This document shows, in pieces, positions 25,801-62,633 of a DNA stretch of 64,000 bases. The stretch covers positions 434,001 to 498,000 of the forward strand of contig JAQGEQ010000270.1 of the NCBI GenBank assembly GCA_034620365.1, in the 5' to 3' direction. This DNA is from Pegea sp. RAD2-039 (Eukaryota > Chordata > Thaliacea > Salpida > Salpidae). How positions within the stretch are numbered: position 1 is the stretch's first letter; each line of letters begins with the position of its first letter. The notes under the pieces are model-generated. The model searched no databases and was not told where the DNA came from. It was given only the letters and a program-made list of their open reading frames with translations. The position numbers and the translations under genes are program-made.

Positions 25801-26717
25801 AGCACTTTTAACCACCAAATATAAGTTATTTCTATAAGTTCTCTCGTACTGTTTTTGTCCCAGAAGTAATTTAAGGTCAGAATGTTAAGTTGAATTAAAA
25901 AACTTTTATTGAAGGTTTGTTCTTTTTGTGAGATTTGAGTTAGTATAGATGATATTACAAATGGAATTTCATGTCATGTTAATAAACGAGTATAATATTA
26001 AATCACTAATTATTGAGATGAAATATTTTTTAGTGTTACCTTTTTTAAGGACCATTTTGCCGTTGATTGACACAGCAAAAGATAAATAGTTTTGTAAAAC
26101 CTCTTCAATACCAAAAATATCTTCGAGTCCGTCAGTTAGTACACTCAATACTTTTTTTTGAAAGTCCTTACTCTATAAAATTTGGGATAATGTAGTACAT
26201 TTAAAGCTGAATAGCTGTGCTGGTTTATTTTTAAGTAAATATGCTTTTAATGGTTAAATGTTGGAAAATTATTACGGATACAATTATATCAATTTCTAAT
26301 TAAAAACAATATTGATGTATGATAAGCATGCTTTATTTATTAAACTTTAATTAGAGTAACAGTTATTTTGTTTACTTATTTAAGATATTTATTTAATAAA
26401 GAAATAAAATTCTTTACATTTGTAAAGCTTTCGTCAAACTCTAACTTTCCCAAATAATTTCTGTTTTCATGAAATGAGACATAATTTTCTAACTGTTCAT
26501 TATAGATTTTATCGTATCGTTGCATCCATTTTTGATAGGGAGTTATCTGATTGTTGATCTCTACTTCAGTCACTTGATGATTGCTACTAGAGCTTTCATC
26601 CACTAATATTTTGCACTTAAAATCATTATGGTTATCTCGAAGCTTATGTATACCAACAAGGTTAATAAGACAAGGTCTTAGTAGCTTATTTATTGAATGT
26701 AGAAAAGACCTCCGCAT
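22820..26717 (-). CDS. LACTB-like serine beta-lactamase family protein, array gene C
   Basis: Exons read downward: 26717-26418, 26172-26040, 25572-25295, 24988-24814, 24570-24405, 24116-23984, 23706-23665, 23591-23460 and 23137-22820; product 558 residues. Motifs: LSFAVSINGKMVL, GAIGSITKTLTAMM (SxxK), YSNYGYQLLALVYEKRTG (YxN), MSWHEASYGLVSTVSDVVKYGN, NHEGSTMES (HxG, with Glu in the middle where sisters have Gly, Ser or His). The exon 3 linker is the TGKRRS/ILENRR type. The start is placed at MRRSFLHS, aligned with sister starts; an in-frame ATG 33 bases upstream would add eleven residues. Intron 2 is nearly identical to that of genes F and G although C is inverted and 17 kb away. Intron 3 carries a LINE 3' fragment. 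It shares a 645 bp head-to-head promoter region with gene D. Confidence 0.9.
25106..25146 (+). mobile_element. LINE 3'-tail fragment in gene C intron 3
   Basis: GGCACCTTCCTTCGCATTTA followed by TTAAAATAAAT matches the very end of the LINE at 15405-16627. Only the last 40 bases are present, a typical extreme 5' truncation. Confidence 0.65.
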
Positions 26718-37300: not shown

Positions 37301-39590
37301 CTTAAAATAAAACAATAAATATCACTTTAAATTGACTCATAGATTGATAGTTATGATTAACATTTTATAACCAGTGAAATTATCATAAAGAGCTTATAAT
37401 TTTCTTACAGCACAAAAATACCATCAAACAACTTTTGCAACATTCATCTGGTATTGTAGACATTAATAAAAGTTACAAGTTGAAAAAGTTATGTTTTACT
37501 GGCTCCAATGAACTTTTGAACACTAACAATGGGAAACTAGTAAACTCAGTCAACTTGATTAAGTGTAAAGATTTAGATTTAGAGCCTGGTAAGTAAAGTA
37601 ATTTTTAAGCACATGTTTAGTAATTTAGTAATTTTTAAGGCTTATGATTTAGCATTACTAAATGATTTTGGGTAAGCGTTTTTCTCATAGCTTCTTCAAA
37701 ACTCAGATCTATCTACTTATGTAAGAGTATGTTTAAGTTCCATTCTATCTTTTAAAGTCTGCAGTCGTAGTTCATAAAGTGTGTGATTTGTGTCTGTGGT
37801 TGACTTGATTGGTTAATTCGAAGTATGATTTTTGTCAGGAGTTCATTTTAATTACTCAAACTATGCATACCAACTACTTGGGCTTGTGTATGAAAAACGT
37901 ACAGGACGAAGTTTTGTGGAAGACTTGCGAGACGAATTGGCTAAAATGGGTTTATATGATACTGATTTCAACTACAGAGAATATTTAGCGTTAGATAGAG
38001 CAAGGTAAAGTATAAGGAATTTATAATTTAATGTTAAATAAAGCAGGATAATAAACTTGATATTTACTTTTGTAATTCAGTTCGATTTATACATGTTTCT
38101 TATCGCTGATGGTTATTAATTAAGCTAACTATTGTCTTACATAGAAAATTCAAATTTATAAGCCCAAATCACCAGTATAATCATTCTCACTTGTAACAAG
38201 TTTTTCAAGTGAACAAAACTTTCACTTGATGACCAAGGCTTTTTAGAAGTTGACAATAGAGTGTATCTTACTTAAAGATGCGCATCAAGTATAACATAAA
38301 ATTGTTGAACAGTTTAAAAATAAAATATATTTTCTAGTTTTTAAATCATACATATTTGATAACTTCTAACTGTGAACATTGAATAAACAGAGGGTGCCAA
38401 TACCACTGGCAAATATCTGATATAAACAAGTCTGCTTATGAAGATATTACATGGTTCGAAGCAGCTTATGGACTCGTTTCAACAACTTCAGACCTGGTTA
38501 AATATGGAAACATCGTGGCAAACTGCTTACTGGTATTTTTTTAATTATTTGGTTAAAGGATTTACTTTTAATTTATTTTTAATAGCTTATTATGATATTT
38601 TTAGGAATAAAAAACAAATGGTTTTTAGAGGCAAAGTCTGATACTTATTTTATGATACTTATTAGCTTTTGGAAAATTTATTGATTCAAACCGCACTTAT
38701 ATCATAATAGTTTTGACTGGTTTAATTCAATTCAGGAAATTTATTAAATAAATTTGTATAAAATGTTTACAAATATACCTATATAAACTGTTTAAGTATC
38801 TAATAAACAACCACTAATATTAAGCTGATAATAGTTTCATTTTACAAATAATTTGTTTATTATATGCATTTATATTTGTCCAGAATGAACGCGACCATGC
38901 GACGTTTCCCTTAAAAAAGTCCAATGTAAGTTTTTACTTCTTTAAATTCTGTTTTATTTTTGTTGTTAATTTATCTTTCTAAGATGGAAATAATGATGAC
39001 GACTGAACCTCCAACATTGCAACGCACAAACGCTCAGCAGTATGACTTAAATTCTATTTCAAGAAGGCGTCTTGGTTGGGAGTATAATTTTCGCTATGAG
39101 GTGGTTTACTTTACAGCAACTTTTATAAAATTCTTTAAGATACTTTTTGACAATCATATGATTTTAAAAAGTAGTAGCCGTTTATATGATTTAATAAATA
39201 CTTTTACTTACTTAGTTACAGTAAAGTTAATTTTCTAGGAATCTTTGTTAAATCAAAACTAATTACTGTTGTTATGTATTACAGGATCGTAATAATAATA
39301 AATATAACGAAAACATGTATTTGCACGGTGGAGCAACTTTAAAGAATTTGTCTATGGTGTCTCTCTACATCAATGGTAATGATCCTTACTCAAATGGCCC
39401 TCCTTCATCAGTTGAAACTTTACAAGAAAATCCTTTGGTTTATCCATTAGGAGAGCAATCAATAGAGGGTGGGGATTTAGTGGTTGGTTCATTAATAACT
39501 GATAGATCATTGGACGTTAATGTAGAAGACTTATTAGTTCAAGTGATGAACCTTGTTCTTTGTGCATACAAGGGGTTTTATAAGAATTAG
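34355..39590 (+). CDS. LACTB-like serine beta-lactamase family protein, array gene E
   Basis: Exons 34355-34663, 34929-35109, 35812-36095, 37411-37588, 37839-38004, 38391-38532, 38884-38925, 38984-39100 and 39285-39590; product 574 residues. Motifs: VSVAVSINGRLLL, GEIGSITKTLTALM (SxxK), YSNYAYQLLGLVYEKRTG (YxN), ITWFEAAYGLVSTTSDLVKYGN, YLHGGATLKN (HxG). The exon 3 linker is the KRRRILENRR type, preceded by the longest GAA (poly-Glu) run of the array (from 35923). The start is set at MSKLLRY, aligned with sister starts; an upstream in-frame ATG at 34328 would add nine residues. Exon 1 has two acidic patches (GDDGDDD and ESDE). The exon 8 donor is GTGGTT, a weak but valid GT site. Intron 3 (36096-37410) is long and empty. 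Confidence 0.9.
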
Positions 39591-42516: not shown

Positions 42517-45500
42517 ATGAGCAAGTCCTTACTACACCAACTAAATAAGCTACTGAGACCTTGTCTTATTAACCTTGTTGGTATACATAAGCTTCGAGAT
42601 AACCATAATGATTTTAAGTGCAAAATATTAGTGGATGAAAGCTCTAGTAGCAATAATCAAGTGACTGAAATACAAAATGAAAATCCGTTATCCCATAAGC
42701 GAAGGTGGATACAGCATTACGACAAAATCTATGATAATCTTTCTTCCATTGACACCACAAATTATGATGGAATTTTTGAATTTGACGAAAATTTCACACT
42801 TGTAATAAATCTAAATATTTTAACTTTGCATATAACTAGTTATTCTAATAACAGCAAACAAAATATTTCTCGTTTATAAGTCTAATAAACAGAAAATAGA
42901 ATCTTAAATTATAGAACATCTATATTATTTCCAACTTTACAGAGCCAAGATTTTCAACGAAAACTTTTGACACTGCTAAATGAAGAACTCAAAATATATG
43001 AAAGTGATCTTGATTATAGCTCCGACTTGTCAAGTAGTTCGAGAGATTGTTCGGATGAATCCTCAAGCCACCCAGAAGATTGTTCAGAATATCCAAATGA
43101 ATCTTTAAACAGCTGGAAAGATTTCCCAAATATTTTGAAGAGAGCACCTTCTGTTAACGGAGCTTATTTATCTTTTGCTGTGTCAATCAACGGCAAAATG
43201 ATCCTTAAAAAAGGTAACACTAAAAAGTATTTCATCTCAATAATTAGTGATTTCATATTATACTCGTTTATTAACATGACATGAAATTCCATTTGTAATA
43301 TTATCTATACTAACTCAAATCTCACAAAAAGAACAAACCTTCAATAAAAGTTTTTTAATTCAACTTAACATTCTGACCTTAAACTTCTGGAACAAAAACA
43401 GTACGAGAGAACTTATAGAAATAACTTGTATTTGGTGGTTAAAAGTGCTTCTAAGTTACTGAACTGCGGATAATATTACTTATACCGTGACGATAACATA
43501 TAAAATACAAAAACTCATTTTTAATAATTTCATGTACACTAGAAGAAGCGTATAATTTCATTAATCATCAGAATAAATTTTTAGTAGATATATAGTAGGA
43601 AAGACAACATCTTAGCTTGCAAGATTTTATAATAAGTTTTTAAGCTTATAATAACTTATAAGTTTTTCTCACTTTAGCTTATAGATACCAAGATAGAGAG
43701 AACTTAGTACCTGCAAAAGAAGATATGGTTGGTGAAATAGGAAGTATTACTAAAACTTTAACAGCTTTGATGATTATGAAACTTATTGAAGAAGAAGAAG
43801 AAGCGCTAAGTGAAAGTGAGCCTCCTGGTAAAAGAAGACGTATCCTTGAAAATAGAAGAGTACCAAAGATAACATTAGACTCTTATGTGGAAGATATATT
43901 AACTCCTGATGTTTGGCCAGAACATTTTGTAAGAGGAGAGACAGATGGAAAAAGAGTAAAAAAGTTTATCTTTAGTTTTTCAACTTCGCTGAATTTGTTT
44001 AACACAGTTATAAAATTAGTATCATAAAATTATTATTATTATAATTAGTATTATAAACTAAATAAATATTTAAGAAAAATTGATGAGATGAAGAAAAATT
44101 CAATACTTTTAACTAATCATCATTTACGTGAAAGCGTTTATGAATATCAAAAATAACTATTTAAGAAGCTTATAAGTATAACCAATAAATAATAATACTA
44201 GATAACAAGGTTAGTAGATAAACATAGATAACGTATGAATAAAATAATTTATTAAGTTATTACATAAAATGTATTTATACAACATACATTAATTTAAATT
44301 TCTTAGTATACGAATTACTTACTGCTAATTATCAAAACTTTAGTCTTGAAGATAATTCTACAGTCTTATAACTGTTTTGGCTTTTTGCATAAATAATATT
44401 TATATTTTAGTTAATATGATTACTTTAATAATCATTACAGTAATTAGACAAATTATTATATGCAGCCCTTTTTCTTTCCACTATCTTTACTTATTTTGTA
44501 TCTTATTGCTTTCATACCTTTATTACAACTTGCATAAATATGCTTTTGTAATAGTTTTACTTTCTCTTCATACTATTTCAGTTAAACTGTTGTGCTTGAC
44601 ACCCCTCTATGTTTCCTAAAAGTTTAGTACTTGCAGCTACACATTTGCAGCGCTAAATAAATTAATATTTAACCAATAAATCAGCTAAGTTAGTATTCTT
44701 TAAAGTGAATATTCTCTTGAGCTTGCTATTTATAACATCAATTTTTTTTGTAGCACAAAGTAACTATTAAACAACTTTTGCAACACACTGCTGGCTTAAA
44801 ATCTAATAAAATTGATACAAATAATGAAGATGAAGATGAAACTATGTTCGATAGTATAATTAATGATAACCAAGGAAATTTGATAAACTCAGTTAGACAA
44901 ATTCAAGTTAAAGACCTTGCTTCAAAGCCAGGTGTATTTCTTCAATTGTTTTTCTTTATTTATTTCAATAAACGTGAAGAAGGGTGCCTGAAGAGAGCAC
45001 TTCCCTCTAACACACATTATCACCAATATCTATTAAGTAAGAATTATAGAAAGCAAAAGATACAACACATGGTATTTCAGTAGTCCTCAAAATATTTAAC
45101 AGTGAACGATTACATAGAATGTTAATAATATAAGAAAGGGGAAAAATCTGTTAGTCTCCTATTGCCTACAAACAGCAGTAAATTATCAACTTTTATAATT
45201 GGGTGTTTGATCATATGCTCATCCATCAGTAAAATAAGATCTATTTTAAAACATAGTAAATAGTCTAAAGTTTTGACCTGTGCAACCTCATTGTCCACCA
45301 GGAATGACTAAATGATTTCATGTTGAAACTCTTCTTTTGAATTTTTAAAGGTTTACTGCTTACTGTAGGTACTAGCATCTAAAAGTAAAACTAGTTTATC
45401 TAACTATTAAGTTAATTTCAATTTTATTTGTCTTATATTTAAAATACCTTTTTAAAAAGGAGAATATTTTATCTACTCAAATTATGGGTACCAACTACTT

Positions 45501-47798
45501 GCACTTGTGTATGAAAAACGTACAGGACGAAGTTTTGTGGAAGACTTGCGAGACGAGTTGGCTAAAATGGGTTTATATGATACTGATTTCAACTACAGAG
45601 AATATTTAGCGTTAGATAGAGCAAGGTAAAGTGATTAAATTATATGCAAATTTATCAAGTAAAATGCTTCCTTAATAATGACAAGTTACCAAAAGTTCTT
45701 AATGATCTATTTCAAAAAGATCGGGATAACAAAGATTAGTCTGAAAAACCAACTATAACCTTTCGTTTGATTATTTGTAATTCTTGTGTTATAACTATAA
45801 TTTCTGATATTCAAACTCAAAACTTTATCAAAATTATCTTTTCTGATAAGACGGTTAGACTGAAGTATTCAGATTTTTTAAACAGTGAAAGCTTCTTTAG
45901 AAAATTAAACAGTTTTTTTTTAGAATTTTAATTTTAAGCTGAATTAGGTACTTAACAAAGTTGAACACATTTAATTTTTATGACTTTGTCACAACCTAAA
46001 GCTATTAAAATAATTTTCTCTAATTGTTACTTTTAAAGGGGTTTTATTAGAGAAAATTCAGGAATACTAAAAGTATATTTTGTGGACATGAGCTGGCACG
46101 AAGCAGATTATGGACTCGTATCAACAGTCTCTGATGTTGTAAAATATGGAAACATTTTTGCAAGCTGCTTATTAGTAATAATTGTTTTTTCTTACTTTTA
46201 TACCTTTTTATTTAATTAATGCTTTGTGTAAGCTTAATAGCAATTCATCCGTTTTTAAAACAGTTCTGCTTTTATTTATGTATGTTGTAACTTCTTTCAA
46301 TTCTATTTACAATTTGTTTATAGTTTACAAGATAGCTTTTCATCATGTACAATCAAATAGTAAATATTTTAACTTATAATTTGGATATAATAACTAAAAC
46401 CATGGCAGATAGTTTATTTAACCTTTATATGATATTTTTCTAGAATAAATCAAATTTGCATACCAGCCCACTCAGCACCAATCAAGTAATTTTAATATTA
46501 TTTCAAATTGTTTTAAGTAAAATTGAATCTTTGTTAGGCCACTGAAATGTGGATGAAACATCATCATGTAGTTAGTGAAGCTGATAGAACTTGGAGTAGA
46601 TGGATGAAAGAATATTATCAAGGACTTGGCTGGCAGGTTAAATATGTGGCCCCGCTAGATTTAAAAGTATGACTTTTTTATTCTTTTCTAATAATTATCG
46701 TGTTTTTTGTAATTTTAGTTGATATATAAAAATATCTTTGATTTTATTCATTAAAGTGTTTTTTTTCTAGCACTGTTGTAATAACTTTTAATAAAAATAC
46801 TATTGAATGCAAATCAATTGACATTTGCAGTATGTAAGTTTTGGTTAAAGTAATAACATCTTTGCTTATAAACACATTCAACAAACAAAACCTACTTTTG
46901 GTTGATAAAAAGCTGTTCCTAAATTATTCATTCCGAAAATAGAGTTTACTGTCAACAGTTGATAATTCTTATGACTGGCATTTTGTAGCAGATTTTGGTA
47001 AAACCAATCACCATAAATTAACTATATTTTCTTATAAGACTCTAGAATTAAAAAACTTCTTTAGCTTTATATGATTTTACATAGGCTGTTACAAACTTTC
47101 AAGAAGTTGACATCAATTTAATTAACTTTTTAAAAGTCACATAGTTTGTACAACCACTGATACAGACACAACCACAGATATATTGCAACAACCTAAAATT
47201 GATAATAACTTTGATTTAATCCTCTATAAGGTAACTTGTTTGATCATCTTAACACATTTGAAAGTCGTTTAGTTTGTGTTCAATCAAAAGAGTAGTAAAA
47301 GATAACAAATTACATTTCTTTGGTATCCTTTAGTTAACAAATTTAAGCATTTTATCTAATTCTAAAGAACCTTATATTGTTTTTGAGTTTTAAATAAAAA
47401 TTTTCTTAAAATGTTAACTTTAAATCAAAACTGTTATGATAATTTTTTCATCTTTTGCATACAACTTTCTTAAGTTATTTGAAGATTATTTTATACACTA
47501 GTCTACCATCGAAGGTGCATTCATACTTGAATTTCTGGTTGAGATATTTGAACATGGCGGGTCTACAGAACAAAATGAGTCCCAGCTTTGTATCTTCAAG
47601 GAGTCAGGCTGTAAGACACAAAGTCATAAGGTCTTGCAAAAAATGCCTTTAATGTATCCGTTGGGTGAAGATTTTGAAAGCGAACAAGATATTGTAGTTG
47701 GTGGAATAATTATAGAACGACTTGAAAACCAAGCAGCAGATGATTTATTGTCAAAAATAATGAATCTTGTTCGATATGAATATTTACGTGACACTTAA
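42517..47798 (+). CDS. LACTB-like serine beta-lactamase family protein, array gene F
   Basis: Exons 42517-42801, 42943-43213, 43678-43955, 44754-44931, 45460-45625, 46039-46174, 46444-46485, 46538-46666 and 47502-47798; product 593 residues. Motifs: LSFAVSINGKMIL, GEIGSITKTLTALM (SxxK), YSNYGYQLLALVYEKRTG (YxN), MSWHEADYGLVSTVSDVVKYGN, FEHGGSTEQN (HxG). Exon 2 is about 90-140 bases longer than in most sisters because of a Ser/Asp/Glu-rich, Cys-containing insert (SSDLSSSSRDCSDESSS). The exon 3 linker is the KRRRILENRR type. Gene G is its nearest relative: exon 1, introns 2, 6, 7 and 8, exon 7 and the 3' UTR are almost identical, while exons 4, 8 and part of 9 are not. Intron 4 carries a LINE 3' fragment. 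Confidence 0.9.
44950..45160 (-). mobile_element. LINE 3'-end fragment in gene F intron 4
   Basis: On the minus strand it matches the LINE 3' UTR at about 16380-16600: TATATTATTAACATTC, CATGTGTTGTATCTTTTGCT, GATAATGTGTGTTAG, a GTGCTCT motif, and the CGTTTATTGAAATAAATAAA tail. It begins about 20 bases inside the intron. Confidence 0.75.
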
Positions 47799-47854
47799 AA
47801 ACTATATTTTTAATGTTTTGATTTGCTACTCGCCCAGTATGTGCTGTGTTTGCC

Positions 47855-47860
47855 AATAAA
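47855..47860 (+). other. Poly(A) signal of array gene F
   Basis: AATAAA about 56 bases past the gene F stop, in a 3' UTR shared with gene G (GTGTTTGCCAATAAAA). Confidence 0.65.
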
Positions 47861-50519
47861 AATATTGGAGAAACTTTTTCAATCATACAACAGCAAAACA
47901 ATTAAAAATGTCAAATACATTGACATTGATTGGTTTTTCCTAAAAATATTTTTTATTTGTAATTTATTCAATAGAAGAATTTCTTGCAAATTCTGTAGTT
48001 CTTTTTTGCAGCTATTGAAATAATAAACCTCCATATCAGCATCGCTAGCATTGCTACAAATAGATCACAGCTAAAAAGTTATATCATCACTAGTGAGCTC
48101 TAGCCAAGATTATAGAAGATAAAAACAAGTTCCAGCATTTTTTCACTTAATTATTGCTAGTCGGTAATCTTCTTCAATTAAAATCGATGAAAGAAGAAAA
48201 AGATAGTAGAGATCGCTAAAGACTTTTAAGGCTTCAAAATCACTTACGACAGAGAATTTATACAAATATCTCGAACTTTCTCTCAATAATGGGAAAGAAT
48301 AAGGAAGTGCAGAAAAAATCTAAAGATAATGTTGGGGTACCTAACAAAAAACGTTCTAAAGCCTCAACAATCACTTGCAATGTTAAATTTTAATGTAACA
48401 ATTGAAGATCGTTTACCAGATTGGATTGAAATTGAGATCCAACTGCCAACTCAACTACCTAGGATTTAAAGTTCAAAAGAAGGGCTAGTCTTACAAAACT
48501 TGAGAAAAGTCATTAGTGAAGTGCAGAGCGAGCAGTTTCTTAGAATTAATAACATGAAGGAAGAGAAGAAGCCTACATCTTTTCACTCTGCAAGTCACTG
48601 AACTGAAAACGAATTTAAAAGAATGAATCTGTCGACGGTTTCATTCTTGTAAAACACTCCAAACTGAGTAGATGAGTCACTGACCCGACTTTCTTCGTCT
48701 ATTTGGGTGAGAGCTTGCTGGGAGCACTTCAACAGCTTTAATATAAGAGAACTATCAAAAATGCTAGATGAAAAAGATAGAAAATTTCCCTGTTGACAAA
48801 CACAAGTCACGTGATTGCATTCTGCAAGTTTTATTGACGGGCAAAAAACTAAAGTCACAACAATGTGGTCACAACAATGTCCAATAAAATTAGGGAGCTT
48901 AGGTACAAGGTAACCACAGGACCTTATATTTCGTTTGAAGGTTTATGGCTCACAAAAAAGAAGAAAGAAATCAATGGTTTTTAACTCGACAAAAGTAGCA
49001 CTAAACAGAGACTCAGTGCTAGCGAAATCCCAAAAACACCTCAGATGTGGCTGGCAAGACAACGAAAAGGTACAGAGAGAGTGCGATAAGAAACTTAGAC
49101 CTTATAATCGACGGAAAAGATATTTGAGCGCTTAAAATCTAGAGAGCTTTGACAAAAATGGGCATAAAATCTGGATTTCTGGAGTGCGTTAACTTGAAGT
49201 ACAACAAACATGTTTGCCCGCAGATGTGTAGACGTTTAATAAAAAAGGCTTACAACAATCCCTGAACCTCATTACAGAATTTTCTTTTAGAATCTTTGAA
49301 GACTATTATAAAATGTTCTTCGATTGAAATTAAGAATGTTGAGCAAAAAGTTTCCCTTTTTGGTGTACATGATAGAGACCAAATAGCGCCTGACGCTGTA
49401 GTAGAACTACTCAAAGTTTAAATTAAATTGTTTTAGAAAGGTTGTTAGAAAAATCTCATTTTTAAATTCCACTTCGAGTTGAAAAAATATAGATCATTGT
49501 TGACACTTTCAAAGCTGGCTTTATATACTTTATATCTTATACAAATGAAGGCATTTGCAAGCGGATTAAACTAAGTTATAAAAGAAATAGCAAAATGGTC
49601 GGTGGAAGCAAGTATAGGGGTTGACTGAACAGGAATTGAACAGCTTATTAAGTTTTGGGATATTACAGAATATAAGATCTAAAATATGTTTTATGAATGA
49701 CTTAATGAACACATTGAGTAAAGAAATTTGTGGCTGAAAAATTGAGGGTTGTTGTGAGAGTTATCTAGTATAAAAGAATAGCCTAATCAATTAGCAAATC
49801 TCCCAAAAACTAATATCACTTGGAATAATATTACTAATATATTGCAGATATCTTTGAAATATAGGAAGGCACTACAAGGAAGTTAGAAACATAATAGAAT
49901 TCTGCAAATGAGTAATAAAGTTAAAGAAGTCAACAAAAACAACTTCAAAGAAGTTTTTTGGAAGATGATAAATAATATAAGCTTGAATGAGTCTGTTGAA
50001 CTATTTATTTAATCATATTCAACAATTTTATTTGAGCGCACTGCATAGACAGTAGATAAACATTAGGAAGTAAAAGAAAGTAACAACCTTAGGAAAAAGT
50101 TTAACAAAAGTTTCAAATTCAGCATTAAAGCATTGTGCTTCTTATAAACTATTCTTATTAATTTACTTTAAAATTTCAGTCTGTTAAATTTGTTGTGTTA
50201 TTTCTGCATTAAACTAATCAAACTCTTTTAAAGTTATCTCTAATGCGCTAATCACAGCTGAAATTCTTTTTGTCTGTACTTCATTATTAGTAAAAAAGTT
50301 ACCATAAATTATCTTAACAATTAATGGTAATTAACAATGAAAACACTACTTTAAACTGTACAAAAAGATCCTAAAATAAAAGTTACTTGTATATAACTAC
50401 TAAAATGACATTTACGCACGCAGTAGAGTAATCTTCTGTCATGTCATACAGATATATTAGAAAACTGAAGCAATAGAAATATAGCATTCAAAAAATTTAT
50501 TGAAAATAAATATGATATT
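47861..50519. other. Long spacer between F and G with a GC-richer relic
   Basis: The part from about 48050 to 49420 is clearly less AT-rich than its surroundings and has many short open stretches on both strands, such as a plus-strand frame opening MGKNKEVQKKSKDNVGVPNK at 48289. None is long, and none matches a family that I recognise. It looks like a decayed mobile element or dead gene. The rest, to 50519, grades back to ordinary AT-rich spacer. Confidence 0.4.
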
Positions 50520-50922
50520 AAATTATATTTACTAATTAACTGTTTAAGACCTTTCACATTTGAAAAGTAGTCAGTTGAAAACGGATGCAAACATTTTTGT
50601 TGTATAAAAGATGCTGTGTCTTACTGAGTCTTTCTCAAGTATTTAATGTTTGTTTATATAAGTTTTAAACAGAAGTTTGAAGATTTGATAAAGGAATTGT
50701 AAATTTCAAACTAGTTTTTATATTCCGTAGAAATTATTGCTTCAGAAAAAGTCTTTCAAGTGTGGAGGTTAATTGTAGAAAAGATGTTGATAAATTATTT
50801 AACGTCGTTAAAACCATATTTCACATTATTGTTGTACTCCTCTATATTTTCAGTCAAACAATTTTTTCTACTAAAAAGATTATAAAAAAAGAGAACCTAT
50901 CTAATGAATAGTCAGATATCAA
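50520..50922 (+). repeat. Long near-identical repeat, copy 1
   Basis: About 403 bases, matching 61589-61992 in the same orientation with only about six single-base differences. It starts at AAATTATATTTACTAATTAA and ends at CAGATATCAA. I see no terminal inverted repeats, target-site duplication or coding potential. This copy is intergenic between F and G. Confidence 0.9.
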
Positions 50923-51571
50923 GAATTGATTTACTTGGCAAAATTTCTCGCTTGAAATGATTCTATTAAAAAGTTATTAGTTTCTCAATATTTGTTTAGT
51001 TCTTATTTGTTAAGTAAGCTTTTACTTTCAGTGATAATATTAACATATAACTCCAGTACTAATCTCATGGAAGTCTCTATTGGTAGAAAATCATTTTTTT
51101 AGGTTTTTTTTTTATTAAAAAGAAAAACACTCTTGTTCTAATTAGCAGTTTGCAATAAAACAAAATAGTGAACATTTTTTAAAGAGATAATTACTACAAA
51201 ATGTATTGAATTCTTTTGTCTAATATTTTTTCAGGTTTCAATTCGTGTTTCAATTTTTAGTAGAAAAGTACGTATTATTGCAGCTCTAAACCAATGTGAC
51301 TTTCATATAAAATTTTGAAAAGTGAATATTTGACGTGCTTGAAAAAGAATTGTCCTTTTCAGGTTGTTATTAACTGGTTAAAGAAGATAGGTTGTGGGAC
51401 ACATTAAGCATGTGTGTACTGGTTCGAAGCAGGCCATTACGTGATGAACCGCTGTAGCTAAAGTGAGTTTTAAAAACAGAATTATATTTGGATTTATTTC
51501 GTTAATTTTTATAAAGCATTAAACACCAGAAATGTTATTTTTTAAAATTTTTTTTTATTGAACTGATGAAA
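50923..51571. other. Intergenic, upstream of gene G
   Basis: AT-rich upstream region without recognised genes. A short GC-richer patch lies near 51380-51460. Confidence 0.4.
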
Positions 51572-51579
51572 TGACGTCA
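51572..51579 (+). promoter_or_regulatory. CRE palindrome TGACGTCA upstream of gene G
   Basis: Perfect palindrome ending 122 bases before the gene G start codon, in the context GAAATGACGTCACAA. The sequence around it differs from gene F even though the two genes are close relatives. Confidence 0.65.
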
Positions 51580-51700
51580 CAATGAATCCACATAACGCTA
51601 CATTTGTAGCTGTTAAAATATTACCACAACTAAAAGCTATCTGTCTGTTTTATTTGTTTAATTAAAATTGTATTGTTTTCTATGTGTCGTATCAAGAGCC

Positions 51701-54700
51701 ATGAGCAGATCTTTTCTACATTCAATAAATAAGCTACTGAGACCTTGTCTTATTAACCTTGTTGGTATACATAAGCTTCGAGATAACCATAATGATTTTA
51801 AGTGCAAAATATTAGTGGATGAAAGCTCTAGTAGCAATAATCAAGTGACTGAAATACAAAATGAAAATCCGTTATCTCATAAGCGAAGGTGGATACAGCA
51901 TTACGACAAAATCTATGATAATCTTTCTTCCATTGACACCACAAATTATGATGGAAATTATGAATTTGACGAAAACTTCACACATGTAATAAATCTAAAT
52001 ATTTTAACTTTGCATATAACTAGTTATTCTACTAACAGCAAACAAAATATTTGTTTTTTTAGTTTATAAAATCCTATTTGTTAGTATATATGCCTAACTA
52101 TTCAGTATTACAAAAATCTTAAATTTACAGAGACCAGACTTTCAGAAAAAACTTTTGGCAATACTTAATGAAGATTACGTAGTTAAAGACCCAGGGTCTG
52201 AATCTGAATCTGATTGTTCAAATAGATCCGGTGAAGGCCCTTATAATGAATTTTATATAGCATTAGCTGTGTCAATCAACGGCAAAATGGTCCTTAAAAA
52301 AGGTAACACTAAAAAGTATTTCATCTCAATAATTAGTGATTTCATATTATACTCGTTTATTACCATGACATGAAATTCCATTTGTAATATTATCTATACT
52401 AACTCAAATCTCACAAAAAGAACAAACCTTCAATAAAAGTTTTTTAATTCAACTTAACATTCTGACCTTAAATTACTTCTGGGACAAAAACAGTACGAGA
52501 GAACTTATAGAAATAACTTGTATTTGGTGGTTAAAAGTGCTTCTAAGTTACTGAACTGCGGATAATATTACTTATACCGTGACGATAACATATAAAATAC
52601 AAAAACTCATTTTTAATAATTTCATGTACACTAGAAGAAGCGTATAATTTCATCAATCATCAGAATAAATTTTTAGTAGATGTATAGTAGGAAAGACAAC
52701 ATCTTAGCTTGCAAGATTTTATAATAAGTTTTTAAGCTTATAATAACTTATAAGTTTTTCTCACTTTAGCTTATAGATACCAAGATAGAGAGAACTTAGT
52801 ACCTGCAAAAGAAGATATGGTTGGTGAAATAGGAAGTATTACTAAAACTTTAACAGCTATGATGATTATGAAACTTATTAAAGAAGAAGAAGAAGCGCTA
52901 AGTGAAAGTGAAAATAGTCCAGTTCATAAAAGACAACGCGGTAGCGAAAGTGATGAAGAATCTACTTGTGAAAGTGATGAGGTTTCAAGAATAACATTAG
53001 ACTCTTATGTGGAGGATATATTAACTCCTGATGTTTGGCCAGAACATTTTGTAGAGGGAGAGACAGATGGACAAAAAGTAAAAAATACTTTTTTTTTTTA
53101 AATAGATTTGTTTAATAATTTAGCTAGCTTAGAATTAGTATTCACGTACCTATTGGATAGCAATAAAAATAAAATGCTTCTCTTATATTTGCTGTAGCTA
53201 ACCGATTTCAAGTGATTAACTTCTTTACTTTCATTTAGTATTAAACTAAAAAAGACTTTGGAAAGAAAAAGTTTAAAAAGTTAAAAACTTTAAATAATTA
53301 ATTTAGTAAAGCTAACTTATGCATTTCACATCCTTCAAATCAGGTAAAAAAATTTAGTTATTTATCAGGTTAAGCTTTTAATTACTCTTAAGTATATTCA
53401 CCAAATAAGAAAAATTAATAATAGTAATAAAATTAATAACCTAGGATTTCCGAAAAGTTTTCTTTATTTGTTTATATATGAATTATTTTATTGCTAATCA
53501 TCGAAAAAATACCGCGAAGCTCATTTTTCATAACTAAATGATCTTTCGAATGCTGATAAATAGACTAGCAAATCGCTATGCAAGAAAAGCTTGTTTCTGA
53601 AAAATTGGAATTATAATTTAAAAACTTTACTACATCAATTTTACATCAATGAATCAATTTTTTATTCTCTTTAGTAACTTAAATAACTTATTTTACAGTA
53701 TAAAATCACTATTAAACAACTTCTGCAACATTATTCTGGCTTAGAGCCTGAGGGATCCTCTGAAAGTGATAGATCTTCAGATTTTAGTGATTGTTTGGTC
53801 AATAAAAGTAGAAATGATAATGAAGGAAGTTTGCTTGAATCAATTAATAATGTTAAGTCGAATAACCTTATTTTTCCTCCAGGTAAACTCTTTAAATCTT
53901 TTTTATTGAAATATTGAATACTTAAGTATAGTTCTTTTAAATGCTGAAATCAGCAATTAATTACAAAACAATCTACCTAGCATCTTAATAATAACTAATT
54001 AGTGTAACGTTTTTAATTCTTACTTCATTTTATTCGTTTTTTAATTCAAATATCTTTTCAAAAGGAGAACAGTTTGCCTACTCAAATTATGGGTACCAAC
54101 TACTCGCACTTGTGTATGAAAAACGTACAGGACGAAGTTTTGTGGAAGACTTGCGAGACGAATTGGCTAAAATGGGTTTATATGATACTGATTTCAACTA
54201 CAGAGAATATTTAGCGTTAGATAGAGCAAGGTAAAGAACTTTTTTTATTCAGTTTTTTTTTGAAATAAGATAGTTTAATAATATATTATATAATTGTTTT
54301 ATTTGCTAAATGAATTATTACATTTACTATTGATAATTACTCTTTAATTTTCTTAAGAAAATATTGGTTGTTTACTTAGCTATACTTTTTTATATTTCTT
54401 ATTCTTAATGTTTGCTAAATTCATTCCTATTTGATGCTTATTTAGCATTATCTTGAGAATATTTTTCTACCTTAATATTTTTAATCTTATTATTAACAAA
54501 CTATAAGGATATTACCTGAAGATAAACAGGCCTTTCCACGAAAGGGTTCATGAAAACTTTGTTCAGTATTTTCACAAAGGTTAATAGCCATAAAGCTTTT
54601 CACAGAAAACTTAACTGAAAAAAACTAAGTCAACCCAAATAAACAGTTTTAGTTGTAAAAAACTCCTTAATTACCCAATAAGAATATGTCCTTCAAAAAA

Positions 54701-57141
54701 CTTTGTACTTTTAGTTGCTGAAAGTAATTTTGTCTCAAATATAAAGTTTATGCAAAAATTACCAATAACTTAGAATGATTAAATTTTTGAATAGTTTCAT
54801 ATACTTAACTGAATAAATGCAGCGTGTAGCTTTATAAAGAATTGTTAATAAAGATAGAGATTATAATTTAGTTTGTTTTAATATAAACATTTTCACTAAA
54901 TAATATCATTAACAATTGTTAATATTAGAGGATACCTTTATAATTCACCAAGAGATTCAGCGAGATCATCTAGCTCTGAAGATGACAAGCGATCTGAAGA
55001 GAGATTGAGGTATTGCAATCAAATTATATAAAAATAGTATCAAGTAAACGATTTTCTAAAGTATGGCAAACATACATGGCTAAGAATTCTTTAAAAATGT
55101 TGTCAACATATTCCGTAAAACCCTTTACTTCATTCGATAACCAATAAAAACTTTAAAAAATTAATTAATCATCTTATAATTCTATTCTTTGACATTTGAA
55201 CTCAAAATTTTATCAAAATGAAGGTTCCCTTCAGAGGTTTTCAGATTTCCGAAACATCTAAAGGTTCCACAGAAAGCTAAACAGTTATTTCCTTCAAACA
55301 ATTAAATGCAAAGCTGAAATTAAAGATAAATAGAAAAATAATTCTTTTAAATAAATATTACTTCTAAACTGGCTACACCGAAAAATATCTTCTATTTATA
55401 GAAGTGAAGATGGTTCCACTGAAGATGAATTATTTCCGGAAAGAGTTAATTACATAGATATAACTTGGCACGAAGCAGATTATGGCCTCGTATCAACAGT
55501 CTCTGATGTTGTAAAATATGGAAATATTTTTGCAAGCTGCTTATTAGTAATAATTGTTTTTTCTTACTTTTATACCTTTTTATTTAATTAATGCTTTGTG
55601 TAAGCTTAATAGCAATTCATCCGTTTTTAAAACAGTTCTGCTTTTATTTATGTATGTTGTAACTTCTTTCAATTCTATTTACAATTTGTTCATAGTTTAC
55701 AAGATAGCTTTTCATCATGTACAATCAAATAGTAAATATTTTAACTTAGAATTTGGATAAAATAACTAAAACCATGGCAGATAGTTTATTTAACCTTTAT
55801 ATGATATTTTTCTAGAATAAATCAAATTTGCATACCAGCCCACTCAGCACCAATCAAGTAATTTTAATATTATTTCAAATTGTTTTAAGTAAAATTGAAT
55901 GTTGGTTAGGCCACTGAAATGGTGGAGAAAAACCAGCATATAGGTAGTGATTTTGATAGAACTTGGAGTAAATGGCTTAAGCAATATCATCAAGGACTTG
56001 GCTGGCAAATTACATATGTGGCCCCGCTAGATTTAGAAGTATGACTTTTTTTATTTCTTTCATAATAATTATCGTGTTTTTTGTAATTTTAGTTGATATA
56101 TAAAAAAATCTTTGATTTTATTTATTAAAGTGCTTTTTTTCTAGCACTGTTGTAATAACTTTTAATAAAAATACTATTGAATGCAAATAAATTGACGTTT
56201 GCAGTATGTAAGTTTTGGTTAAAGTAATAACATCTTTACTTATAAACACATTCAACAAACAAAACCTACTTTTGGTTGATGAAAAGCTGTTCCTAAATTA
56301 TTCATTCCGAAAATAGAGTTGACTGTCAACAGTTGATAATTTTTATGACTGGCATTTTGTAGCAGATTTTGGCAAAGCCAATCACCATAAATTAACTATA
56401 TTTTCTTATAAGACTCTACAATTAAAAAACTTTTTTAGCTTTATATGATTTTACATAGGCTGTTACAAACTTTCAAGAAGTTGACATCAATTTAATTAAC
56501 TTTTTAAAAGTCACATAGTTTGTATAACCACTGATACAGACACAACCACAAATATATTGCAACAACCTAAAATTGATAATAACTTTGATTTAATCCTCTA
56601 TAAGGTAACTTGTTTGATCATCTTAACACATTTGAAAGTCGTTTAGTTTGTGTTCAATCAAAAGAGTAGTAAAAGATAACAAATTACATTTCTTTGATAT
56701 ACTTTAGTTAACAAATTGTAAGTATTTAATATCAATTTAAATAAATTATTTTAGATGAGTTAAGAATTGTGATCTCTTACTAGTGATTTCTACAAGTTTT
56801 TGTATAAAATTGATCTAATTTAGTTAAATTGCTTTACATATCAGTCGCCAAATGAAAATGAAGTTTTGACTGATTTTGCGATTGCTGTATATGAACATGG
56901 CGGGTCTACAGATGTAAACCAATCTCAGCTTTGTGTATTCAAGGAATCAGGCTGTAAGACACAAAGTCATAAGGTCTTGCAAAAAAGACCTTTAATGTAT
57001 CCGTTGGGTGAAGATTTTGAAAGCGAACAAGATATTGTAGTTGGTGGAATAATTATAGAACGACTTGAAAACCAAGAAATTAAAAGCTTATTAATGAAAA
57101 TAATGAATCTTGTTCGATATGAATATTTACGTGACACTTAA
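51701..57141 (+). CDS. LACTB-like serine beta-lactamase family protein, array gene G (ten exons)
   Basis: Exons 51701-51985, 52131-52302, 52770-53077, 53699-53882, 54065-54230, 54929-55009, 55402-55546, 55816-55857, 55910-56038 and 56845-57141; product 602 residues. Motifs: ALAVSINGKMVL, GEIGSITKTLTAMM (SxxK), YSNYGYQLLALVYEKRTG (YxN), ITWHEADYGLVSTVSDVVKYGN, YEHGGSTDVN (HxG). Sister exon 6 is split here by an extra 392-base intron, and the added exon encodes a Ser/Asp/Glu/Arg-rich stretch (ARSSSSEDDKRSEERL). The exon 3 linker is the HKRQR/SESDEE type, although intron 2 before it is nearly identical to that of F, which has the other type. Start set at MSRSFLHS; an in-frame ATG lies 33 bases upstream. 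It lies tail-to-tail with gene H. Confidence 0.9.
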
Positions 57142-58002: not shown

Positions 58003-58008
58003 TTTATT
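58003..58008 (-). other. AATAAA overlapping the gene H stop codon
   Basis: On the minus strand the last codon GAA, the stop TAA and the next A make an AATAAA hexamer, as in gene D. If used, the 3' UTR would be extremely short. Confidence 0.4.
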
Positions 58009-61000
58009 CTAGCTTTCTGTATTCACACAGAACTAAGTTTATCACTTTAAGCAACAACACATCTGTACTTATATTAAATGTTCTATCGACAGTTATAGCA
58101 CCAACTAATATGTCTCTATCATACAGATACTTTTCTCCTAAAGGATACACCAAAGGAGTATCTTGTATAGTTGCACCTGATGATGTAGTGCCTGAATTAT
58201 TACTGTAGATAGCCAATGTCGATAAACTTCCAGGAGCACTACCGCTGTGAAAGATAACTTTTTCCTCATATCTGTCCCGAAGTGTTGACTATGAGAAAAA
58301 AGACAATTTTAATTTTAGAGTAAAAATGATGCTTAAATTTTGTTAACTTAACCTACATTAGAAGATCAAAATAATTGCAAAAGCTGGAACTTTTCTCACA
58401 GTAAAGTGACTTTATGTTGTTTATTTTGGTGATTTGTTTATTTCAATATATTTGAATGCAATTTTACAATTAATTAGTTTATACATAAGTTTATCAGATC
58501 AAAAATATGATATTCAGATTAATAGAATAAATGCGCTTTGCAAATTCACTAAGTACAATTCAAAATTATTCAACAAAATTTTTTATAGAAAATATTTCAA
58601 GTTTTATCTTATGAGTAAGTGACAGCTTAATGATAAAAAACTATTCACTCCTATTTTAGGAAGACAGAGTTTTTTACTCCAGGCAAGAGCAACCCGACAA
58701 TCTGTTTCAAGTTGAAGATTATCTTCGGTTATATCAGGAACTTCTTCAAGTACATGATAGAAACTTGTATCATCTACAACTTTTAGCATCTGATCAAATA
58801 AATAAATAATATTGACAAAGCAAGTTTATAAATCGATAATACATTTGTAGGTTGTAGTGGATAAACATCGGTATTTTCTAAGTTCTGAAAAAACAAAAGC
58901 TTGTCAGTTTCCTTATTAACTAAGCAGCTATAAATACAATTATATTTTTTGGTAAAAAAAAGTTTTTCTATAACGATTTTGCATATTCATTATTTTAAAT
59001 GCCTGGTATCCGAGCAAATGAGAAAACTAAAGTAAACAAGTTTGTTTCTTTTAACGGTTTTAATATTTCAGCTAATGCAACGTTATAACATCATTTGCAA
59101 CAATTTTTAAAACAACATTTACAAATTTAAAAAACTAGAAATGTCTAGAAATTTCATAGAAGAATAAACTTTTGACATAGTAAAAAAATAATATAGATGA
59201 GGTATAGATTTTGTATACATTGCTTAAAATGTATGATAATTGCTGTATATAAATGAGAATAGGCAAGAACTTCTAAACTGTTTTTGGCTGAAATAAGTTT
59301 TTTCATTTTATTTTCTTAATAATATATTTGTGAATAAAATTATTTTTACTAGTTCATTGACAGTGTAAGTTTATTTATTTTTAAGTAACTTTCATTATAT
59401 AATTTTAGCTTCTCTTAGAGTTTTTTATTGTGTATCTTTAACTGTTATTTCCAAGGTCAGAATAAAAACAACAACAAGTTATGTTTACTAACTGTCTATG
59501 AAAGATAATATTTTACGTTTTTGAGCTTTAATTTAAAATTTACCAATAATTTTTAGAAAATTACAAAAGCAGTTAATTCATAAAAACATTATATATATGA
59601 TCGTTAAATTATTGTTTAATTAACAGTCAACTAATGATAAATACATAACTTTAAGAACAAAATATAACAAGTTTGCGTACTGAATAACAGTTTGTAACAA
59701 TGTTTCCATATTTAACAAGATCTGCAGTAGTCGAAACAAGTCCATAAGCTGCTTCAAACCAGCTAAAATCATTAAAAACCGGCTTTGTAGTATTTTCTGA
59801 TACAAACTCCCTATAATGAAAACATACAATTTATTTTCAGACTTATTATTCATATCTTTGTAAAAATTTCAAAACCTAATTTACTTTAAAAGCTCTACTA
59901 TATAAAGAATAATTATTTTCAAACATATGTTTTAAAATTATAGCTCAGATTCTATAAGAGTTTTAAAAGATAGGAAGAAACGGCACTAAATAATTTAATT
60001 TTTTGCAATTTTAATTAAAATAAGAAGCATAATGACACCACCTTAATCTATCTAAAGCTAAGTGTTCTCTGTAGTTGAAATCAGTATCATATAAACCCAT
60101 TTTAGCCAATTCGTCTCGCAAGTCTTCCACAAAACTTCGTCCTGTACGTTTTTCATACACAAGTGCGAGTAGTTGGTACCCATAATTTGAGTAGATAAAA
60201 TCTTCTCCTTTACCGAAAATATTTTGTATATTATATAAATAATAATAAAGTAATAATCGAAGAAATTATGTCAATCAACTATTAGAGTGAAGTTGATAAC
60301 TAAATAATCAGTAATTGCAATTAAAATTAATAAAAGTGACAAAAATGGTAAAAAGTATTTAGTTTACCTGGCTTACAGTAAAGATCGCTGCATCTAATAT
60401 GTGTTATCGACCTTTCTAAACTTCCTTTGTCATTATTTAAATAGGTATCTAGCGGAGCTCCGAAGTATTTATGCTTTCTAGCAAATTCATGAGATTTTAA
60501 GCCAGATTCATGTTGCAGCAGTTGTTTAATAGTGATTTTATACTACAGAAACAATTTTCCAGTTTAGTCAGAGTTGGTCATAAACATTTATTAAATTGTG
60601 AATAATTATTTTAAAATATTTTGTCAGCAATTAAATTTGGTGTTAAGTCTTTTAATCAGCGATTATAACTTTTTGAAAAAACTTTGTTGAGACTAAATAT
60701 TAGATTGTTAGCGTGATAATCCAATTGAGTTCAAAATAATTGAAATTAGCTTTAAGTGAATGTTAGTTGTTAGCATTCTAATTTTTATATAAGCAAATAA
60801 AATATGTGCGTTACATCAGAAAATAATATATGTTATTATATATTGCAACATAGTTTGATTTGTGATTATAACTATTTTACATGATTCTATAATTTTAAAT
60901 TATTTAACTATCTAATAATTACCAAAATAGTTTGAATATTAACACTTAGTCAAACTGTTTTAAGAGCTCCTAGTTAATTTTATATCTAAATAAAATTGAG

Positions 61001-62633
61001 TAACAAATAGTTTTGCTTATAGATGGAATTGTTGGAGCTACAATTTCTCTACTTTTATGCAATTTCTAATAAATATCTGACGCTAGTTCTATTCTTTTGC
61101 AAGCTACTAAACAAATCTAAGATAATCAAACAATTAAAAAAGTATTTTTTACTTTTTGTCCATCTGTCTCTCCCTTTACAAAATGTTCTGGCCAAACATC
61201 AGGAGTTAATATATCTTCTACATAAGAGTCTAATGTTATTCTTGGAACCTCATCACTTTCACTAGCAAATTCTTCATCACTTTCACTGCCGCGTTGTCTT
61301 TTATGAGGTGGACTATTTTCACTTTCACTTAGCGCTTCTTCTTCTTCAATAAGCTTCATAATCATAAGGGCTGTGAACGTTTTAGTGATACTCGCAATGC
61401 AAGTAACCATATTTTCATTTGCAAGTGTCTCGTTTTCTCTATCTTGGAAACCGAATGCTGTAATAAAACAATTTTTTTATAAATACATTTTTGTATGTTG
61501 AGATATTAAGCAAAGTTGTCAGCAACACCTATAAAGCGTTTTTAAAAGCAATTTATTTTATTTATTGTAGGTTTTGATAGATTAAAAGAAATTATATTTA
61601 CTAATTAACTGTTTAAGACCTTTCACATTTGAAAAGTAGTCAGTTGAAAACGGATGCAAACATTTTTGTTGTATAAAAGATGATGTGTCTTACTGAGTCT
61701 TTCTCAAGTATTTAATGTTTGTTTATATAAGTTTTAAACAGAAGTTTGAAGATTTGATAAAGGAATTGTAAATTTCAAACTAGTTTTTATATTCCGTAGA
61801 AATTATTGCTTCAGAAAAAGTCTTTCAAGTATGGAGGTTAATTGTAGAAAAGACGTTGATAAATTATTTAACGTCGTTAAAACCATATTTCACATTATTG
61901 TTGTACTCTTCTATATTTTCAGTCAAACAATTTTTTCTACTAAAAAGATTATAAAAAAAAGAGAACCTATCTAATGAATAGCCAGATATCAAAAAGCATT
62001 CATTTAGACAAAATTGCTCAAATATTTCCCTGACTATTTTACATCACTAAACAAACTCAAAACTTTTTGTAATGTGCTTACCTTGGTTGATAACGAGTCT
62101 ACCATTAAATGAGATTGCTATGGCAACTGTGTTGTCATGGGGATAAACTCCTTCTTCAGATGCTGTTTCTGAAAATTCTGCTTGTAATAGAGCACACAAC
62201 TTTTTTTGGAAGTTTGTACTTATCTAAAAAGATTTTTCGAAGTTTTTACTGCTGTCTTACAGAAAGCAAAATATAAAAATTTTATAAATATTAAACTTTG
62301 TTTAAATCTACTAATTTCTTATCTCTACAAACTAAAAGTTACATTATTTTTTTGTTGCTTTGGTGAATACTCAGCATCTCCATTTGTTTCTAGATAATTA
62401 TCGAACCACATGACATTTTCTTCAAACTTTGGTTCATACCTGTTTAGGTATGTCTCTCTCAGTAAGTTTAGATCTTCATTTGCTACCTCAGTAACTTTAA
62501 ACTGTATATTATTTTCCAGAAGTTTTTTACTTTTAAAATCATCATGGTAATCTTGTATCTTCTTTACAACAACAGAGTTGATTAACAAAGGTCTCAAAAA
62601 CGTTTTGACTGAGGAATGAACAAAGTTTTTCAT
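58004..62633 (-). CDS. LACTB-like serine beta-lactamase family protein, array gene H
   Basis: Exons read downward: 62633-62343, 62223-62082, 61457-61153, 60542-60368, 60207-60042, 59810-59681, 58884-58843, 58789-58649 and 58288-58004; product 558 residues. Motifs: VAIAISFNGRLVI, CIASITKTFTALM (SxxK with Ala before it, as in vertebrate LACTB), YSNYGYQLLALVYEKRTG (YxN), FSWFEAAYGLVSTTADLVKYGN, FHSGSAPGSL (HxG). It is the most diverged copy at the N-terminus: both Cys of the RPCL and FKCK blocks are replaced (RPLL, FKSK), and the region after SITK is the HKRQR/SESDEE type. The exon 1 donor (62343) and exon 8 donor (58649, GTGAAT) were chosen by phase and are the least certain joins. Intron 2 carries one copy of the 400 bp repeat. 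Confidence 0.87.
61589..61992 (+). repeat. Long near-identical repeat, copy 2 (gene H intron 2)
   Basis: About 98% identical to 50520-50922 over its whole length. It lies within intron 2 of gene H, antisense to the gene. Confidence 0.9.

Follow-up and report, generated by a model that had tools for sequence, protein, structure and literature searches.

Exon 8 of two neighbouring genes, F and G, is far more diverged than the introns on either side of it, and the most likely cause of this contrast is that conversion between F and G has been more recent in the introns than in exon 8. We assign a probability of roughly 0.6 to the explanation as a whole, in which F and G are LACTB-like serine hydrolases in a tandem cluster whose copies trade short tracts by ectopic gene conversion, and in which exon 8 forms the kind of divergence peak under conversion pressure that is described for exon 5 of the primate red/green opsins. 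The comparison is one of two paralogues within one genome.

The window, i.e., the whole stretch of 64,000 nucleotides that was analyzed and to which all coordinates refer, holds eight intact tandem paralogues (A to H) of the LACTB-like family. Gene F (42517..47798, nine exons, 593 amino acids) and gene G (51701..57141, ten exons, 602 amino acids) lie on the forward strand. Gene models and family matches place B (17209..20943), D (27363..32526) and E (34355..39590) on the same strand, and A (10616..15005), C (22820..26717) and H (58004..62633) on the reverse strand. In a profile search, all eight spliced proteins matched PF00144 (serine beta-lactamase-like; E<=0.001), with the gene F protein scoring 133.7 bits against a curated cut-off of 27, and the closest relative of solved structure was LACTB (E=4.2e-28). 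The three catalytic motifs, SxxK, Y-S-x and H-x-G, are all present in the cluster proteins, in which S208 and K211, Y343 S344 N345, and H513 and G515 (F numbering) are invariant in 8 of 8. Allelic copies elsewhere were set aside, as a search with exon 5 recovered all eight genes of the cluster, two paralogues outside it and a single weak match on C15. Between F and G lies a fragment of 430 bp from intron 2 of gene H. Among the literature matches listed, none reported a tandem LACTB cluster or expansion in its title or the opening of its abstract; the match for LACTB with tandem family expansion was the raccoon dog genome paper.

In both genes, exon 8 (F, 46538..46666; G, 55910..56038) is made of whole codons, 43 in number, with AG before it and GT after it, and its length and phase are the same. 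The two versions align without gaps and differ at 22 of 129 positions, as the initial annotation had counted. Its coordinates and its figures for the surroundings also proved correct in our alignment: intron 6 (F, 46175..46443; G, 55547..55815) differs at 3 of 269 positions, exon 7 (F, 46444..46485; G, 55816..55857) at 0 of 42, and intron 7 (F, 46486..46537; G, 55858..55909) at 2 of 52, both within its final 9 bases. Together with the first part of intron 8 (F, 46667..47322; G, 56039..56696; 18 of 656), the flanking introns show 23 differences in 977 positions, and the exon is indeed the more diverged (Fisher P=2e-10). The densest 129-bp window between 46094 and 47322 contains 23 differences, a number reached in 0 of 5000 shuffles, and begins at 46529, 9 bp upstream of exon 8. 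Exon 8 might also owe its differences to a local hot spot of mutation or to an error of assembly. This would fit the finding, described below, that silent and near-exon intron changes are raised as well, but both frames are intact, the splice sites are clean and the excess tracks the limits of exon 8 almost exactly, which makes this explanation very improbable. The longest run identical between F and G measures 165 bp and is marginally unusual (P=0.043). Different ages for the upstream and downstream introns were set aside (5/321 vs 18/656, P=0.37), and the 3' end of exon 6 together with exon 7 shows no difference from the introns (p=0.26).

Tracts of high and low identity alternate along the two genes. 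Introns 2, 6 and 7 and most of intron 8 are near-identical (intron 2, 99.1%; intron 6, 98.9%; intron 7, 96.2%; and exon 7, 100%), while introns 3 to 5 barely align, with a forced gapped alignment giving 72.1%, 77.9% and 76.3%, respectively, and 66.1% for exon 4. Introns 2 and 6 to 8 must thus have been homogenised later, and introns 6 to 8 are therefore unfit as an equal-age neutral clock for exon 8. The excess of exon over intron divergence is not limited to exon 8. Intron 2 (F, 43214..43677) differs at 4 of 464 positions and the adjoining exon 3 (F, 43678..43955; G, 52770..53077) is more diverged, with 21 differences in 278 positions of the BLAST alignment and 32 in 276 of the codon alignment. 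In nine exon/intron comparisons within homogenised tracts, which were chosen by us, overlap in sequence and are not independent, the neutral-rate estimate of the exon exceeded that of the intron in all nine and did so with p<0.05 in five. Part of this trend has another source than selection, as exon 3 shows haplotype exchange between paralogues: at 16 of its 32 difference sites F fully matches C and E, and G fully matches A, D and H, so that the excess there is at least partly due to exchange. Divergence is also seen over the final ~160 bp of intron 8 and at the 5' end of exon 9 (F, 47502..47798; G, 56845..57141); further into exon 9 of F the HGG part is conserved and a short patch, 47734-47753, is diverged. 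Genome-wide, the first part of intron 8 has copies in F and G alone and intron 2 in C, F and G alone, and on this distribution introns acting as mobile elements were set aside.

Strong diversifying selection on exon 8, as first proposed, is possible, but the intron clock does not establish it. The observation that all but two changes alter amino acids holds as a count, with 15 replacements and 2 purely synonymous changes among the 17 codons that differ (18.5 replacement and 3.5 silent changes by NG86 pathway averaging). As a sign of selection, the 20 of 22 count alone was rejected, since ~80% of random changes in exon 8 would be replacements and two or fewer silent ones are expected with P=0.17. 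The dN/dS ratio was addressed by a joint likelihood of introns and codons in which the age and omega of exon 8 were either tied or free. With the introns as the clock, a model of equal rates is rejected (M0 vs M1, p=1e-9) and exon 8 at the intron age takes an omega of 8.8 (M1, lnL -1609.58), which would suit a single recent conversion or duplication that spanned exons 6 to 9, exon 8 included, with positive selection changing exon 8 afterwards. Freeing both parameters, however, gives an age of 0.135 and an omega of 1.6, with an interval of 0.57 to at least 8, the grid limit (M3, lnL -1607.30), a value that differs neither from 1 (M2 vs M3, p=0.45) nor from that of the other F-G exons pooled (p=0.31). 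The equal-age model is disfavoured (M1 vs M3, p=0.033), the silent sites of exon 8 looking elevated too, and an older exon 8 with omega 1 (M2, lnL -1607.59) fits a little better. Selection after a single conversion also finds some favour in the comparison of all 28 pairs of paralogues, where exon 8 alone has a pN (0.601) not below its pS (0.593), although exon 8 is hard to align in distant pairs and its pN is inflated there. Given the likelihood results and the gathering of intron differences near the exon (P=0.007), we consider that explanation unlikely. The two estimates, 8.8 and 1.6 from the same data, make F and G a clean case, in an AT-rich eukaryote, of an intron clock misleading on selection.

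The preferred reading, in which exon 8 is older than its flanks, draws on two kinds of neutral site. First, the silent excess in exon 8, which amounts to only 2 to 3.5 changes per ~25 sites, is not significant against far intron sites when 2 silent changes are counted (P=0.096). Second, intron differences lie nearer to exon 8 than shuffling would place them (P=0.0068 for the mean log distance), the crowding depending on the cut-off used (for 10, 25, 30, 50 and 100 bp, P is 0.078, 0.005, 0.011, 0.077 and 0.022, respectively). Some of the near-exon intron changes adjoin a T run. Neutral divergence is about 0.13-0.20 per site in exon 8 and 0.024 in the flanks. The raised silent sites and the crowding of intron differences toward exon 8 together support, on modest numbers, a divergence in the exon that is older than that of its flanks. 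Relative to C, the common source of the F and G exon 8 is more recent than that of exon 4: dS/dN for exon 8 is 0.15/0.20 in F-G, 0.91/0.82 in C-F and 1.09/1.06 in C-G, and for exon 4 it is 0.45/0.64, 0.89/0.53 and 0.92/0.61, respectively. The exon 4 dS of 0.45 is the lowest among the computable pairs, which indicates that the F-G pair is younger than the rest.

The cluster shows active conversion. Exon 5, which carries the Y-S-N motif (F, 45460..45625), is homogenised in all eight copies, with a pS of 0.137 within the cluster and of 0.51 and 0.72 to the two outside paralogues; these last values led us to reject silent-site constraint as the reason for its uniformity. The initial annotation had offered exon-sized conversion from another paralogue as an alternative to selection, and conversion does appear to be the key process, but around exon 8 the recent conversion lies in the introns, and a donor exon near-identical to either version did not emerge. 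Genome searches, which score best candidates only, found exon 8 in F and G alone, with both versions used as DNA and that of F as protein. It is thus decidedly unlikely that exon 8 of F or G was replaced via a third paralogue, since lost or absent from the assembly. The haplotype exchange in exon 3 speaks for such a replacement, as does the piece of gene H intron 2 between F and G, a sign that pieces of copies come and go; against it, beyond the searches, no other exon 8 of the cluster comes close to either version (the smallest dN is the 0.82 of C-F), and the two versions share length and phase.

The pattern of exon 8 is of a known kind, best documented in primate colour-vision genes. In the accessible parts of two opsin reports (PMC3213168, PMC3924837), the L/M (red/green) genes have converted introns and retained exon divergence, with exon 5 as a divergence peak under conversion pressure. 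F and G resemble them as adjacent paralogues with introns less diverged than exons and a one-exon peak with low flanks (P=2e-10), near which neutral sites are raised and fall off with distance (p=0.033 and P=0.0068, though 0.078 and 0.077 at 10 and 50 bp). In the opsins, orthologues, polymorphism and known function support selection against conversion, whereas F and G come from one genome and belong to a cluster of eight copies that are more diverged and that also exchange exon haplotypes. A duplicated enzyme gene in which stretches of high and low divergence alternate, with apparently ongoing conversion, is likewise described in the available part of a study of GOT1p1/GOT1p2 in Tigriopus californicus (PMC3728101), although that pair was studied across populations and the F/G island instead matches a single exon together with its margins. 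Snake venom genes, as far as the portions at hand describe them, show accelerated exon change and ASSET (PMC2711939, PMC2474615). Fast change of coding segments is common to both systems, and the exon 9 patch resembles a segment switch, but exon 8 has an omega of 1.6 (p=0.45 vs 1) and scattered substitutions in an alignable exon rather than a swap for unrelated sequence.

Ectopic gene conversion would move short tracts among the copies of the cluster, and later conversion may have overwritten the F and G introns again while exon 8 kept its older divergence. Copies in which conversion ran through exon 8 would have been lost, perhaps because F requires one version of this segment and G another; alternatively, two tracts could have flanked exon 8 by accident. 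If selection does hold the peak, then the peak marks, without prior knowledge, which segment sets the functions of F and G apart.

Exon 8 aligns to a stretch of human LACTB that includes W454, E457 and Y460 and in which loop L15 begins (numbered here as chain index plus 96; PDB 7ulw, 7v1y). By homology, the segment so marked would adjoin the catalytic cavity and the start of the filament-contact loop. A further reading takes the cluster as composed of two exon kinds, with catalytic exons 3 and 5 kept near-alike across all copies by exon-sized conversion and the cavity-side exon 8 renewed fast in each copy by a post-conversion burst of amino-acid change (omega about 9). We think this rather unlikely; were it true, the cluster would be a repertoire with one catalytic core and many specificities. 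The cluster proteins share with human LACTB, as presented in the part of PMC9815587 available, membership of PF00144 and the S-x-x-K, Y-S-x and H-x-G motifs (SISK, YST and HTG in the human protein), but differ from it in number, with eight copies in tandem, in the acidic/basic low-complexity insert that exon 3 carries and in their N-terminus. Human LACTB forms filaments and is mitochondrial; the cluster proteins align to it in sequence across the L15 loop region.

Genes F (42517..47798, plus strand) and G (51701..57141, plus strand), two of the eight LACTB-like paralogues named A to H in the window, differ far more in exon 8 (F 46538-46666, G 55910-56038) than in the introns beside it. The counts in the initial annotation were correct: in the F-G alignment 22 of 129 bases differ in exon 8, as against 3/269 in intron 6, 0/42 in exon 7 and 2/52 in intron 7. 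Intron 8 has 18 differences in 656 positions over its first part, and its last ~160 bp are barely alignable. The contrast between exon 8 and its flanking introns is a strong observation (P=2e-10); the densest 129-bp window, with 23 differences, was matched in 0 of 5000 shuffles, and the longest identical run was only marginally unusual (P=0.043). Replacements account for 15 of the 17 differing codons, a share that says little alone because ~80% of random changes there are replacements (P=0.17).

The eight paralogues stand in tandem, spread over both strands, in a stretch of 28% G+C (C4:434001-498000) within a 105.7 Mb assembly. The gene models have nine exons each, ten in G; all eight give an ATG-to-stop open frame after splicing, with AG/GT at all internal junctions given three corrected exon limits in gene B. 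Every spliced protein matches PF00144 (8/8), all eight genes keep the three catalytic motifs unchanged, and LACTB is the best solved relative (E=4.2e-28); searches of the available literature listed no LACTB cluster of this kind. Outside the cluster, two paralogues have a recognisable exon 5 (C1:1173.8k and C4:1068.5k), and a locus on contig C15 is a weak match that by eye appears nearer LACTB. An RVT_1 (reverse transcriptase) fragment lies between A and B (15478-15831), and G contains an additional in-phase exon of 81 bp (54929-55009) that encodes much Ser and Glu and whose counterpart is absent from the F model.

Identity between F and G is a mosaic in which near-identical stretches (intron 2, 99.1%; intron 6, 98.9%; exon 7, 100%; intron 7, 96.2%) alternate with barely alignable ones, where forced gapped alignment gives 66% in exon 4 and 72-78% in introns 3-5. 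C and F also have tracts in common (10/464 differences in intron 2, 2/121 in part of intron 5). Exon 4 dS/dN is 0.45/0.64 for F-G, 0.89/0.53 for C-F and 0.92/0.61 for C-G; the F-G dS is the lowest among computable pairs, which makes these two genes somewhat closer kin than other pairs. The exon 8 values are 0.15/0.20, 0.91/0.82 and 1.09/1.06, respectively, so that the common source of F-G exon 8 is clearly more recent than that of exon 4. The common source of introns 6-8 appears to be more recent still. The small intron difference gives the age of the most recent patch and not that of the genes, and the F-G introns are no neutral clock.

The same contrast was found in other exons. In homogenised tracts the neutral rate estimated from the exon exceeded that from the intron in 9/9 comparisons (p<0.05 in 5/9), and omega (a dN/dS-type ratio) was below 1 in eight of the nine, exon 8 being the exception; we selected these comparisons, and they have sequences in common and are hence non-independent. 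A (13077-13197) and H (61032-61152) differ at 2 of the 121 bases that open intron 3 and at 33/305 in the adjacent exon 3, a second instance of an intron less diverged than its exon. Exon 3 (F 43678-43955, G 52770-53077) occurs as two main haplotypes, KRR-ILENRR in C/E/F and KRQR-SESDE in A/D/H/G. Of the 32 sites at which F and G differ, 16 have both C and E matching F and all of A, D and H matching G, and 22 have at least one of C/E and at least two of A/D/H agreeing likewise. Paralogues have swapped these haplotypes irrespective of the introns, and a source of the F-G exon 3 divergence is visible. After its SITK helix, exon 3 of A-H (e.g. 13198-13532) has an acidic/basic low-complexity insert of variable length (EEEE, SESD, KRQR), almost missing in gene B. 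Exon 5 (F 45460-45625, Y-S-N motif) is homogenised in all eight genes, with pS 0.137 within the cluster and 0.51 and 0.72 to the two outside paralogues; by our own count the matching block ends within 20 bp of the exon in 20/28 pairs, which points to exon-sized concerted evolution across A-H.

The likeliest mechanism is ectopic conversion, which would homogenise those stretches still alignable between cluster copies. In F and G, introns 6-8 have probably been overwritten by it recently, whereas its last passage through exon 8 lies further back. The sparing of exon 8 would be best explained by the loss of converted copies, two versions presumably being needed. The F-G pair is a further instance of a known pattern, a divergence peak at one exon with low-divergence flanking introns: in opsins, exon 5 divergence rises and the flanking introns remain low (PMC3924837), and intron/exon contrasts in gibbons support such a divergence peak (PMC3213168).

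We fitted the introns (HKY) and exon 8 (an MG94-type codon model) jointly with our own script. Equal age with omega free gave omega 8.8 (lnL -1609.58); an own exon 8 age with omega 1 gave 0.20 against 0.024 for the introns (divergence per neutral site; lnL -1607.59); freeing both gave age 0.135 and omega 1.6 (lnL -1607.30). By these fits divergence at the silent sites of exon 8 looks raised (p=0.033), and omega does not differ significantly from 1 (p=0.45). The silent excess is not significant when just the two purely silent codons are counted (P=0.096). The equal-age model is disfavoured. Strong diversifying selection, as initially proposed, is accordingly not established, since omega 8.8 needs equal age. 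Omega in exon 8, whose interval extends from 0.57 to 8 or more (8 being the edge of the grid), does not differ significantly from that of the pooled remaining F-G exons (p=0.31). A burst of positive selection after conversion is rather unlikely. Independently of the fits, intronic F-G differences are nearer to exon 8 than shuffled ones (P=0.0068 for log distance); with cut-offs of 10, 25, 30, 50 and 100 bp, P was 0.078, 0.005, 0.011, 0.077 and 0.022, respectively. Codon selection alone would not produce such crowding. The figures for both the fits and the crowding are modest and based on few changes. A hot spot at exon 8, or an assembly error, is a very improbable origin of the pattern.

The initial annotation had alternatively suggested exon-sized conversion into exon 8 from another paralogue. 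A search of the genome assembly with the F and G versions as DNA and the F version as protein yielded no donor exon among the best-scoring candidates, which speaks against this. That a donor paralogue existed and has since been lost is doubtful; it would accord with signs that copies, or parts of them, have been gained and lost, for between F and G a 430-bp piece (50520-50949) is 96% identical to part of H intron 2 (61589-62019), the only two places given by a genome search. It is either what remains of an H-type copy or a segment that was transferred.

By profile alignment, exon 8 corresponds to the LACTB stretch that contains W454, E457 and Y460 and runs into the beginning of loop L15; the remainder of the loop is matched by the diverged 5' end of exon 9. 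The exon 8 alignment is poor except at its invariant Trp, and we obtained the residue numbers by applying an offset to the chain index. According to PMC9815587, W454 and Y460 are listed near the catalytic site, E457 is part of an inter-subunit salt bridge, and a linker in place of L15 (467-482) abolished activity. Exon 9 also contains a 20-bp patch (47734-47753) with 13 differences, AADDLLS in F and EIKSLLM in G, preceded by 88 identical bp and followed by another 57, which looks like a segment switch.
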